Position numbers and translations under genes: made by a program. A stretch of DNA of 64,000 bases from Pedobacter glucosidilyticus DSM 23534 (lineage in GTDB: Bacteria > Bacteroidota > Bacteroidia > Sphingobacteriales > Sphingobacteriaceae), in NCBI RefSeq assembly GCF_000425145.1, contig NZ_AULF01000006.1, forward strand, positions 124,001 through 188,000, written 5' to 3'. Position 1 is the first letter of the stretch; every line of letters starts with the position of its first letter. The notes under the pieces were generated by a model. The model made no database searches, was not told the origin of the DNA, and saw nothing but the letters and a program-made list of their open reading frames with translations. Positions 11,649 through 52,533 of the stretch are shown piece after piece.

Positions 11649-12458
11649 ATGAAATTAAATTTAAAATCCACGTTATTAGGCGCCATAACCCTTTTTATGG
11701 CCACCACAGCTTGCAACCAAGCAAACAACAAGGCAGATGCCGAACATCAAGATTCTGTTCAGAATAGCAGTTTAAGCATAGAGGCTCTGCAAGAAAACAA
11801 TGATTTTCCTGATGCTCAGCTCACTATCAAAAATGTATCTACACAGCCTGCTGGTACAGACTCTGTTAAAGTAATTTTTAATTTTGATGTTAAAAATTAC
11901 GAGCTTACCAAGCAAACAGCAAATATGCCAGCAGAACATTGTGCAAACTCTGCCGAAGGACAACATATACATTTTATACTAGATAATCAGCCTTATCAAG
12001 CATTATATAAACCTACAAATACCATTACTTTAGCTAAAAATACCGAACATATTTTACTTAATTTCCTATCCAGATCTTACCATTTATCGGTCAAATCTGC
12101 CGGAGCATCTGTTTTAACTAAATTTAAAATTGATGAAAATGGTAAATATGTAGCGCTTCCTGCGCCTAAAGAACCAATGCTATTTTATAGCAGACCAAAA
12201 GGCGATTATAAAGGAAAAGATACTGAAAACGTATTGTTAGACTTCTTTGTAAGCAATGCTAAAATTTCTCCGAATGATTATAAAGTTAAAGTTGGTGTAG
12301 CTGATACTTCTTTTATAGTAGATAACTGGACGCCTTATTTTATTAAAGGTGCACCTGCTGGAGATTTAAAAATCAGAATAGAACTGGTTGATAAAAACGG
12401 GAAAACCGTTAGTAATGCCTTTAACCCCACAGAAAGAACTGTTGCTATACAGCCATAA
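11649..12458 (+). CDS. Lipoprotein of unknown function
   Basis: 269 residues with a lipoprotein signal (LLGAITLFMATTAC, Cys at residue 22) and a polar linker. The body has two beta-rich parts. The first (about 60-150) contains MPAEHCANSAEGQHIHFILD, a His/Cys-containing stretch that may bind a metal or be structural. The second (about 175-265) has PMLFYSRPKGDYKGKDTENV and ends PTERTVAIQP. Probably anchored in the envelope. It follows the aldehyde dehydrogenase on the same strand (53 bases) and is closed by a strong hairpin terminator. No family name is certain. Confidence 0.8.
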   Translation: MKLNLKSTLLGAITLFMATTACNQANNKADAEHQDSVQNSSLSIEALQENNDFPDAQLTIKNVSTQPAGTDSVKVIFNFDVKNYELTKQTANMPAEHCANSAEGQHIHFILDNQPYQALYKPTNTITLAKNTEHILLNFLSRSYHLSVKSAGASVLTKFKIDENGKYVALPAPKEPMLFYSRPKGDYKGKDTENVLLDFFVSNAKISPNDYKVKVGVADTSFIVDNWTPYFIKGAPAGDLKIRIELVDKNGKTVSNAFNPTERTVAIQP

Positions 12459-12463
12459 AACAA

Positions 12464-12496
12464 AAAACGGGTTGAGGTAAAATCTCCACCCGTTTT
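12464..12496 (+). terminator. Intrinsic terminator after the 11.6-kb lipoprotein gene
   Basis: Stem AAAACGGGT with ACCCGTTTT (plus a further partial pairing), followed by a T-rich tail. The same stem sequence recurs at 13449-13486, on the other side of the decayed toxin-antitoxin island. Confidence 0.8.
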
Positions 12497-12665
12497 CTTA
12501 TATAGCATAACAAAACATAAAAATATTTACATAGACTTATACTGTCAATTCACCATCCTATAGGATAATTTTTAGGTTTTAGTTGATTTATATTATATTT
12601 ATCTTACATGTTCGAAATAGATGAGGATGTTAAAAACAAAATTTAACTACGATATAGAATAAGTT

Positions 12666-12875
12666 ATGATAGCAATAAAACCACAATACATTACAGATAA
12701 TGCAGGTAAAAAAATATCTGTAGTACTTCCTATAAAGGATTTTAAAGCTATTATGGAAGAGCTAGAAGAGTTAGAAGATATAAAGCTTTATGATGAAGCT
12801 AAAAAATCAAATGAACCTTCTGTTCCTCTTCATGAAGCCTTTGAAATGATTGAAGCCAAACGCAAAGCTAAATAA
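12666..12875 (+). CDS. Phd/YefM- or RelB-like antitoxin
   Basis: 69-residue acidic protein (MIAIKPQYITDNAGKKISVV ... PVPLHEAFEMIEAKRKAK-type ending) that looks like the short antitoxins preceding RelE toxins in Bacteroidota: an N-terminal PQYITD...KKISVVLPIKDF segment for dimerisation and DNA binding and a charged C-terminal helix that would wrap the toxin. Its stop overlaps the toxin start (TAATG at 12873-12877), the usual coupling in type II modules. The toxin reading frame downstream is broken, so this antitoxin now has no intact partner in the window. Confidence 0.75.
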   Translation: MIAIKPQYITDNAGKKISVVLPIKDFKAIMEELEELEDIKLYDEAKKSNEPSVPLHEAFEMIEAKRKAK

Positions 12876-13128
12876 TGGCTTATCAGGTAAACTTAAAGAA
12901 GAGCGTTATTAAAGCTCTTGAGAGAATTAACGAGCCTTATTATTCTAACATTAAGGAAGCCATTTATAGCCTTGCCGATAATCCAAGACCAACAGAATAT
13001 AAAAAGCTAAAGGGTAGAGATGGTTTAGGATACGCATAGCTGATTACCGGATTATCTATGATATTTTTGATGATGTACTTATAGTAGATGTTATTGACTT
13101 AGGACACAGAAAAGATATTTATCAATAG
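12875..13128 (+). pseudogene. RelE/ParE-type toxin, frameshifted
   Basis: Read from ATG 12875 the frame gives MAYQVNLKKSVIKALERIN ... EYKKLKGRDGLGYA and stops at 13037-13039. Shifting frame at about 13028-13030 continues without a gap as IRIADYRIIYDIFDD ... VIDLGHRKDIYQ to a stop at 13126-13128. Together they give a complete RelE-family toxin of about 84 residues: the KLKGRDG turn, the R-x-x-DYR-I-IY strand and the C-terminal GHR-x-x-IY motif. At the junction, where a Trp/Tyr-Arg pair is usual, the DNA has lost either one or four bases. Both halves are too short to act as toxin alone. Confidence 0.8.
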
Positions 13129-13132
13129 AAAC

Positions 13133-13404
13133 ATGTATAAAAAAGTATCAATTTATCATTTAATTCCTGTTTTTTTTATTGCGATATTATTTCTTATGAA
13201 AAATAAGGTACAAACTTAATTCTAGTTTGTACAGCGTTTTATATTTTATTAGAAATCTTCGTTACCTTAAAGTATATTAGAATTAAGTTTGATAGAACAG
13301 GCTTATATTTAAATATTCTAATCTCGGTAATACATTTGATATCTGGATTAATAATTAGTTACGTTAATTTAGCTATGAATGTAGGTGCTAGTTCTATATT
13401 TTAA
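13133..13404 (+). pseudogene. Possible broken small membrane protein
   Basis: ATG 13133 opens a frame with MYKKVSIYHLIPVFFIAILF that stops at 13217-13219. From about 13222 another frame runs uninterrupted to 13404 with hydrophobic segments (FYILLEIFVTLKYIRIKF, LNILISVIHLISGLIISYV) but no start codon. Joined, they would make a three-helix membrane protein of about 90 residues, so one frameshift would explain the gap. Codon content is AT-rich like the neighbours. No homologue is recognised and chance open frames in AT-rich DNA are possible. Confidence 0.35.
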
Positions 13405-13448
13405 TTTTCTAGATAACACAATTAAGTTTTTATCAAAAGTCATAAACA

Positions 13449-13486
13449 AAAACGGGTTGAAAATTTACTTCAACCCGTTTTTTTTA
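13449..13486. terminator. Hairpin terminator with T-run
   Basis: Stem AAACGGGTTGA with TCAACCCGTTT, a 9-base loop, then eight Ts on the plus strand. It lies between the decayed island and the convergent DUF4920 gene and shares its stem sequence with the hairpin at 12464. Confidence 0.8.
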
Positions 13487-13500
13487 CTAAACTAAGCACC

Positions 13501-13986
13501 TTACATCACCACAACTCCCTTAGCTTCAAAGCTAAGCTTTACTTTAGAAGTAGTTATTTTATTGATTTCTTCCTGAGACTTTCCGGCATCTTCTGCATAA
13601 TGTCTTTGGGTTTCTACAGAAACAGTATCTATCTTTGCAACACCATCTAAAACAACAGTTTTTCCAGCGATATCTTTAGGAACAAAAAACGCATAATCCT
13701 TAAAAGTCACATGTAAGTCTTCGCCATTTGCTGATTTTAATTTTAACCAACAGCCCTTTTTCTGACAAACCTCTGCAATCTCGCCTTTAATTTTGGCATT
13801 GGTAGCGCCAGATTTTTCTGCAATTGCTTTTACAGCCTCTAAACTTTGTATATTATTATCAAAAACAGAATCGCCGTAGGTAGTGCCATTAACTAATTGT
13901 GGCCCTTTTAATTCTACTTTTTGTGAGATAGAATTACAAGAAATAGCAAAAAGCGCTATAAAAGAGAGTTGTAATATTCTTTTCAT
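13501..13986 (-). CDS. DUF4920 lipoprotein
   Basis: About 161 residues from ATG 13986; a longer open frame reaching 14058 lacks signal-peptide character and is rejected. Lipoprotein signal MKRILQLSFIALFAISC with Cys at residue 17. The DUF4920 core shows KIKGEIAEVCQKKGCWLKLK, containing a conserved pair of Cys, then DLHVTFKDYAFFVP, TVVLDGVAKIDTVSVETQRHYAEDAGK and ITTSKVKLSFEAKGVVV. The fold looks like an OB-type beta domain. The family has no proven function; the Cys-x4-Cys pair could bind a metal or be redox active. Monocistronic, with radA upstream. Confidence 0.88.
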   Translation of the reverse strand: MKRILQLSFIALFAISCNSISQKVELKGPQLVNGTTYGDSVFDNNIQSLEAVKAIAEKSGATNAKIKGEIAEVCQKKGCWLKLKSANGEDLHVTFKDYAFFVPKDIAGKTVVLDGVAKIDTVSVETQRHYAEDAGKSQEEINKITTSKVKLSFEAKGVVVM

Positions 13987-14106
13987 CTTTAATATATTAT
14001 AACTTGTTTGGTAGCACAAGATTTTATGATGTACAAAAATGAGTTTTTTCTTTCTCATTTAAATCCTACCTATGAAGAAAAATATAAATTTTTACGATAA
14101 AACAAC

Positions 14107-50983: not shown

Positions 50984-51151
50984 TTAGGATTTGGCTTTAC
51001 TATCATTCTGATTGGCTACTTTAAAATCTATCGCTAGATTATATTTGCTATCAACTGTTGCCTGTACATTATAAGCAACCTCTGTAATATTGTTTCGGGT
51101 ATTCAACTGCCGACTGTCTGGGTCTGAGGTTGAAATCTGTACTGTCTTTTC
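50984..51151 (-). pseudogene. Transposase remnant (IS1182/IS5-like DDE segment)
   Basis: About 55 residues (SDPDSRQLNTRNN, ITEVAYNVQATVDSKYNL, AIDFKVANQNDSKA) match the conserved middle of DDE transposases of the IS1182 type, where DPDSR is followed by a YNVQ motif. The frame upstream turns into repeat-derived sequence and downstream it stops at once, so the gene is cut at both ends. It is a remnant of an insertion sequence in a repeat-rich spacer. Confidence 0.75.
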
Positions 51152-51639
51152 AGAACAAGACAAGGAATCTCCTCCCAGACTTGTTCGAGTCTTCTTCGGG
51201 AAAACACCCCTATTTCCCGAACAAGTCTCGAAGAGGTCTCGAACAAGTGTGCAAAAAGACTGGCAAAAGCCAGCAAATGGCGGCAACTGACGGCAAAAGC
51301 CGGCAAAATAGGCTCTGGCTATTGACATGAATTTCGCAAAACACCACCTTTAGCGCAAATAAAAAATAGATAGCATTACAAAAGAAAATTTGGCACCATG
51401 GTTAAATCTCTAAAATGAAAGGATATATACTCTATTATGCATTATTATATTCAAAACTAAATGACGCCCAAATGGCGCAAAGTATGTAGCCTAAGCCTAT
51501 GTATTGGATACTTGTGCCTTGTAATTTCTTTCATTTAGCGCAATATGTCAAAGTTTCTGCTTTATAAGGCACAAGAAGCCTTTGTCCGCTTACCTTACGC
51601 CTCATTGAGCCATTGAGGGGCAATGTGCATTTATAAATT
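51152..51639. other. Repeat-mosaic spacer A
   Basis: Holds a 20-base imperfect hairpin at 51184-51203 and 51213-51232 (two mismatches), GCAAAAGCC/GGCGGCA-like short tandem stretches (about 51250-51310), and an inverted repeat CTTGTGCCTT at 51511-51520 with AAGGCACAAG at 51566-51575. Open frames across it are made of repeat sequence, not genes. Confidence 0.6.
51184..51232. repeat. Hairpin repeat in spacer A
   Basis: Arms at 51184-51203 and 51213-51232 pair with two mismatches. The second arm recurs with one mismatch at 52356-52376 in spacer B. Confidence 0.7.
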
Positions 51640-52143
51640 TTAAAAACTAACACGCAAATATTTTAAGTTTTTTTCATTTGGTTTAATAATAGAAAATTTT
51701 CTATTCTTTAGTTCATGTTCGAGGATGTGTAAAATAATTTCTTTAGAAATACTACTAATTTCACTGCCTTTTACGTCAGTATAGTTGAACCCAACTTTAT
51801 CTCCATCAACAAAAATTATATAATCTTGAACATTTATCTTGTCTTTAAATTTACTATATGTTTCAAATTGAGTGATGAGTACTTCTTTCACTTCACTGTT
51901 GCCGTCTAGTTTGTATACCAATGTAGCTTCTCCGTTTGTAAGTTTATGAGGACTTATAATAGGAAATTCATCGTAATTTAATACTTTTATGGAAAGGGCT
52001 TCTCTCATCAATTCACGATATAAGCTAACAAGCTTTTTCTTTTGATAATAAATAGTCGAAGTATTAAAAGCGCATTGACCCCAACTTAAGCTTATGTTAA
52101 AAGTTAGTAAAATAGTAATTATAAGAAATTTAGATAGTTTCAT
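51640..52143 (-). CDS. Secreted protein of unknown function
   Basis: 167 residues with a signal peptide (MKLSKFLIITILLTFNISLSWGQC, cut near residue 23). Mature part mixed alpha/beta, e.g. LTNGEATLVYKLDGNSEVKE, INVQDYIIFVDGDKVGFNY and IILHILEHELKNRKF. No family known. Isolated between two repeat-rich spacers; its codon use is AT-rich like the neighbours. Confidence 0.7.
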   Translation of the reverse strand: MKLSKFLIITILLTFNISLSWGQCAFNTSTIYYQKKKLVSLYRELMREALSIKVLNYDEFPIISPHKLTNGEATLVYKLDGNSEVKEVLITQFETYSKFKDKINVQDYIIFVDGDKVGFNYTDVKGSEISSISKEIILHILEHELKNRKFSIIKPNEKNLKYLRVSF

Positions 52144-52321
52144 TACATTATGCTTTTCAAAATATTAATGATGATGATTTGTATTTTCAATAAGTTCGAT
52201 TAACCTAAAGTAAACAAATAATTTAAAATACAAAACTTTATTAATACAAGTCCACGTATAGCCCACCTATACCCCACCTTTTATCCACGTTTTATCCACG
52301 TCTCCTTCGGTACTTCTCCGA

Positions 52322-52376
52322 GGCTTCTTCGTAACACCTTCGGAAAAACAGGGCCATTTCCCGAAGAAGTCTCGAA
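52322..52376. repeat. Hairpin repeat in spacer B
   Basis: The 52356-52376 arm matches 51212-51232 with one mismatch and pairs imperfectly with GAGGCTTCTTCG just upstream. Confidence 0.6.
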
Positions 52377-52533
52377 CATGGTAGGGAGGCGGAAAGCAGA
52401 AGGCTGAAAGCAGAAGGGAGAAAGCCTAAAGCAGAAGGCGGAAGGCTTAATCAATCAATCTTGTGAGCGGAAGGCTCTAATCATCATGATATGAATAACA
52501 GTATCAAAGAAGCACAACAGCTAAGGTCATAAA

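Follow-up and report, generated by a model that had tools for sequence, protein, structure and literature searches.

A RelBE-type toxin-antitoxin cassette between two copies of a local terminator in Pedobacter glucosidilyticus: probable insertion with duplication of the target

The cassette and its neighbouring genes

The window analyzed here is a stretch of 64,000 nucleotides from Pedobacter glucosidilyticus DSM 23534 (contig NZ_AULF01000006.1), the genome of which is a 4.0-Mb draft of 62 contigs. In this window, a cassette of 0.94 kb (12500-13437, plus strand) is located between two convergent genes: a lipoprotein-like gene of unassigned family on the left (11649-12458, plus strand; ORF list and Pfam) and a DUF4920 gene on the right (13501-14058, minus strand; Pfam PF16267). 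The cassette contains an intact RelB-like antitoxin gene, a RelE-type toxin gene with one frame shift and a degenerate membrane-protein frame, and a terminator hairpin is present at both of its ends. According to the ORF list, the cassette holds no transposase or integrase gene, and no further copy of it is found elsewhere in the source genome. A multi-copy repeat or insertion sequence (IS) as carrier was ruled out, since the genome has no additional copies, and the cassette does not qualify as a transposon, IS or MITE, being present once and lacking a transposase frame. A donor for its leader or tail was not found among the fetched loci and congeners.

The locus was compared with 17 other genomes of the genus. 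Among these, only G010, a Pedobacter glucosidilyticus MAG that is the nearest relative and was named through its matching locus, has the island at the same place. The cassette is missing from G012 and G013; the gap between the same two genes is 54 bp in G012 and 151 bp in G013, against 1040 bp in the window and G010.

The last part of the cassette is a membrane-protein-like frame (13133-13404, plus strand) consisting of two pieces, 13133-13219 and 13207-13404. The initial annotation had described a broken membrane-protein frame after the toxin, and the split is indeed present at about 13,207-13,219; the frame is broken in G010 too. No convincing homologue of this frame was found among the fetched loci.

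The antitoxin and toxin genes

The antitoxin gene (12666-12875, plus strand) encodes a protein of 69 aa that matches the RelB-like family PF18506 with 33.2 bits at a cut-off of 27, in agreement with its earlier description as an intact antitoxin-like gene. It lies directly upstream of the toxin gene and touches it, with position 12875 being both the antitoxin end and the toxin start. The 5' part of the toxin is encoded in a first frame (12875-13039, plus strand) that stops 11 nt past the frame shift, and the 3' part in another frame (13030-13128, plus strand), which reads IRIADYRIIYDIFDDVLIVDVIDLGHRKDIYQ, matches the ParE/RelE tail and carries the conserved GHR..IY end. The RelE-type toxin had been reported to break and to resume in a different frame, and this is what a single net frame shift at about 13,023-13,029, within a short T run, produces. 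Through this shift, the first frame is left without the conserved C-terminal half and stops ahead of the invariant C-terminal arginines and tyrosine, which align with those of Escherichia coli RelE. The gene as it stands in the source genome does not qualify as encoding a functional toxin. Each window part alone scores just under the cut-off of 23 bits for the RelE/ParE family PF05016, for which the intact G010 toxin reaches 42.6 bits. Programmed frame shifting at the break was rejected, as there is no slippery heptamer at this position and intact relatives read straight through.

As judged from its layout and family matches, the pair is a RelBE-type (type II) toxin-antitoxin (TA) module. The toxin family matches E. 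coli RelE, which provides the closest solved structures, across its whole length (E 8e-10). Unlike E. coli RelE, it has a length of about 84 aa and forms its own Bacteroidota branch, and the antitoxin, compared with the E. coli RelE system, is nearer to Pfam RelB-like PF18506.

The history of the toxin gene

Examination of related genomes for an intact relE had been proposed, and one was found in G010, although as a different toxin allele beside the same antitoxin. The window and G010 antitoxin genes differ by one synonymous change and encode the same protein, and the flanking genes show a dS of 0.10-0.13, whereas the toxin (12876-13130) shows a dS of 0.96. Because of this contrast with the near-identical antitoxin and the flanks, the toxin alone appears to be a diverged allele, which was most simply brought in by recombination under an unchanged antitoxin. 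The lineage with the swapped toxin could be either that of the window or that of G010. Upstream and downstream of the break alike, the toxin has a dN/dS of about 0.1, and because the ratio is this low on both sides, the break is probably recent and the toxin frame seems to have been under purifying selection until very recently. The island had been called decayed, which is too strong a term for a toxin with such a history.

Alternatively, the frame shift may stem from an error in sequencing or assembly, in which case the pair would be intact and active. Purifying selection on both toxin parts is the pattern of an intact gene, and the shift is located within a short T run of a 62-contig draft genome. 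However, a run as short as this one is rarely misread in short-read sequencing, and toxins of the RelE-type family have been broken repeatedly, which makes an error unlikely. Among distinct loci of the family, which had been located via the toxin, the toxin is broken in 17 out of 124 and the antitoxin in 3 out of 121.

The flanking hairpins and the direct repeat

The left copy of the direct repeat (12451-12499) comprises the end of the lipoprotein-like gene, the last codons of which fall inside the duplicated stretch, and a terminator hairpin, while the right copy (13438-13487) carries the second hairpin. The hairpins have folding energies of -16.6 and -18.1 kcal/mol (z -4.8 and -6.7, respectively), and none of the shuffles folded equally well. 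The sequence AAACGGGTTGA occurs three times in the window, each time within the two hairpins, with 0.01 occurrences expected, and the stem pattern is absent from the remainder of the genome. In G010, the cassette is flanked by perfect direct repeats of 49 bp, which start within the final codons of the left gene and extend through the hairpin. The left copy in the window is identical to both G010 copies and the right copy has diverged. The description of the island as bounded by two near-identical hairpins is confirmed by the folding z-scores, the shared AAACGGGTTGA and the uniqueness of the stem pattern in the genome. The repeated unit is slightly longer than the hairpin itself, and it is target sequence rather than the element's own, as it takes in the final codons of the lipoprotein-like gene and as different repeats occur at other loci.

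The window copies have ceased to match over their full length, and part of the similarity is masked by a flipped loop in the right copy. Over its 23 bp, the core of the right hairpin (13454-13476) exactly matches the reverse complement of the G012 empty-site hairpin (L017 2320-2342), and its flanks keep their orientation relative to that site, so that the difference looks like a flip of the terminator stem-loop. The window copies can be aligned without gaps only in part, which would also fit two unrelated hairpins, one being the terminator of the left gene and the other that of the cassette, alike through a stem that is common throughout the genus. This is hardly credible, as the stem pattern is unique to these hairpins in the genome and the G010 copies are identical over 49 bp that include coding sequence of the left gene.

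Occupied and empty sites in the genus

The empty site of G012 has a single hairpin, and that of G013 has a single terminator with an REP-like inverted repeat as its interior. This long inverted repeat (L018) consists of GCTGAGCGGAGTCGAAGCC and its mate inside the terminator. The deeper congeners (G001, G002, G003, G005, G007, G011 and G017) have no island, and their lipoprotein gene is followed by a single terminator-like inverted repeat. Because the G012 and G013 sites are empty and the deeper congeners are island-free with a single terminator, gain of the island is the simpler reading. The suggestion that the island was inserted between copies of a terminator had been made with an empty site holding a single hairpin as the test, and this is the state of G012. 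The contrary state, two hairpins without an island, was not encountered, with each of the empty G012 and G013 sites showing one terminator.

Through the direct repeats, the island could be excised cleanly with one copy remaining, and it might therefore be ancestral and have been lost from G012 and G013 via recombination between the hairpins. This requires several losses, as the deeper congeners are island-free too, and the G012 hairpin is unlike the left repeat copy found at occupied sites; such a history, already disfavoured, is very improbable.

Long direct repeats at other toxin-antitoxin loci

Related loci were taken from whole-genome searches and a named genome collection. They include loci from metagenome assemblies, and a few cases are non-independent (G403 and G031 represent one event). 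A repeat was counted when a gapped self-match reached at least 38 bits, a threshold picked after the first cases had been seen, and the inner edges of both copies were at most 500 bp from the TA genes. Long direct repeats (30-238 bp) flank 26 of the 120 Bacteroidota loci of the RelE-type family, compared with 12 of 968 control segments of the same size taken off-site within the same loci (p 9e-18). With the same rule, repeats were found at 0/27 cold-shock genes, 2/28 generic ParE loci and 6/26 HigB loci. Because of the HigB and ParE counts, long-repeat flanking is neither confined to the RelE-type family nor general to ParE toxins. A first repeat scan of 30 generic ParE and 30 CspA loci was discarded since its large matches were short-contig artefacts, and short loci were left out of later scans.

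The repeats vary by site, and the clearest ones are pieces of neighbouring genes or terminators. Their sources include the 3' ends of genes that we take to be cinA-, tyrS-, trpC- and rimO-like, the 3' end of a convergent gene and the 5' end of a presumed lhr-type helicase gene. In relatives without the TA pair, the trpC end and the lhr start are each single. In G202, the downstream trpC copy resembles a decaying duplicate and not the gene of the relatives. The identity between repeat copies is often 77-94%. At one locus (L327), a HigB-HigA pair is located near the 3' end of a long gene between 164-bp direct repeats that are 98% identical; this is apparently a very recent insertion, which may have changed the C-terminus of the long gene. 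The repeat of G004 appears to contain a piece of an REP-associated transposase, has partial copies elsewhere in the G004 genome and may have another origin.

In three species, a TA pair lies upstream of the lhr-type helicase gene (L080, L081, L298 and L299). Of the two repeat copies at this site in G403, the far one is similar, together with its left flank, to the TA-less G361, and the cassette-side one carries the kind of promoter seen in other species, which suggests a transfer using the repeat as homology arm.

Hairpins with z below -3 are present in 9 out of 19 repeats, 4 out of 67 random segments and 10 out of 18 convergent intergenic gaps. Hairpins as the insertion target were rejected, as convergent gaps are equally hairpin-rich; the hairpin richness of the repeats therefore points to safe sites rather than to hairpin targeting.

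Probable insertion with duplication of the target

In the proposed course of events, a RelBE-type cassette would have entered the shared terminator of two convergent genes in the common ancestor of the window genome and G010. A target stretch of about 50 bp, which starts in the final codons of the left gene and extends through the hairpin, now lies on both sides, and its duplication would have been part of the insertion event itself, as in 'insertion with long target duplication'. The repeats may afterwards have been usable as homology arms, allowing the cassette to spread to empty sites of related species. Subsequently, a diverged allele would have replaced the toxin gene, and only this gene, in either the window or the G010 lineage, and in the source genome the toxin was probably disabled recently by a one-base frame shift that left the antitoxin intact. 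We estimate the probability of this whole account, with insertion, toxin swap and recent frame shift, at about 0.7. Directly observed are a single terminator at the empty site, two at the occupied one, a repeat that consists of local sequence and a cassette without a transposase or integrase gene. Because the target stretch is now on both sides, each neighbour would keep a terminator and the cassette would be insulated, which may be a benefit.

A fresh duplication is favoured by the identical repeats of G010 and by the 98% repeats at one HigB locus. On the other side, no cassette copy has been caught in the act, the window copies now match only in part and the repeat threshold was set post hoc. 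We know of no mechanism for making such long target duplications. An alternative that needs no duplication in the recipient is homology-assisted import, in which a donor carried the pair beside the same conserved gene, recombination took place in that gene and the other side was closed by illegitimate joining, so that the recipient's own gene end became the second 'repeat'. The unlike types of the two lhr-site copies, one cassette-side and one G361-like, fit such an import and different histories of the copies, as do the repeat identities, which are often 77-94%. The window speaks for it as well, as its left copy matches the G010 type, whereas the right copy is like the G012 empty-site allele and the right flank is like that of G013. 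Import does not, however, account for the first arrival beside the gene, and against it stand the two identical G010 copies, the HigB locus with copies 98% alike over 164 bp and the downstream trpC copy of G202, which is like a decaying duplicate and unlike the relatives' gene. Import is a serious contender, although on balance we doubt it.

Relation to known systems

Insertion with long target duplication was reportedly observed for restriction-modification systems by Nobusato et al. in 2000 and Furuta et al. in 2010. Two papers describe it for these systems, the repeats being on the scale of 100 bp (PMC3874152, PMC3031569). The features that define it are also found at the present locus: the element lies between long direct repeats, the empty site has a single copy and the repeat is target sequence. 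Restriction-modification insertions, as described in these papers, also share with the present case a small addiction-type unit without a transposase, long and variable direct repeats of target sequence, and their recognition from occupied versus empty sites. Unlike the restriction-modification case, the present one concerns a type II TA pair, in Bacteroidota, at many independent sites that are often gene 3' ends or terminators.

The chromosomal pair ccdO157 of E. coli reportedly lies between two core genes, is absent in some strains and is decaying in others (Mine et al. 2009 are said to have described this), and differs in that it is not known to carry a long target duplication. This work is cited in PMC2654758. 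A ParE/ParD-like pair of Microcystis aeruginosa, next to MaOC1, is enclosed by a pair of identical direct repeats of 152 bp, which each contain a 16-bp inverted repeat and of which the first begins 14 bp past the stop codon of a gene (PMC7935541). Like the window pair, it is a TA pair between direct repeats that hold inverted repeats near a gene end. It differs in being, as described there, a single cyanobacterial case with a toxin of another branch that is known from the occupied site. For TA pairs, there is one cyanobacterial precedent for long-repeat flanking in the open papers searched, and an earlier TA report may exist outside these.

TA pairs as possible mobile units

We tentatively propose that type II TA pairs of Bacteroidota might themselves be mobile units, which would enter without their own transposase or recombinase while duplicating 30-240 bp of the target, with the duplicates serving as interspecies homology arms. 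If true, this mode of movement would be common to restriction-modification systems and perhaps to addiction modules in general, with the repeat anatomy as the link between these systems and TA pairs. It addresses the old question of how small chromosomal TA pairs come and go without a visible mobile element. About a fifth of the RelE-type family keeps what would be a scar of arrival, and as neighbours and empty sites can be compared, the process of entry is testable. A usual end of such pairs is seen as well, in which the toxin is the first to break and the antitoxin stays.

Other direct repeats in the source genome

Another ParE-type toxin locus of the source genome (L100, on contig C21 near 55,886) appears to be flanked on both sides by a 138-bp direct repeat of 78% identity. 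In the window, a control segment at about 51,170-52,380 contains an imperfect 64-bp direct repeat (77%), beside which a short frame on the minus strand (50984-51328) resembles a transposase remnant.
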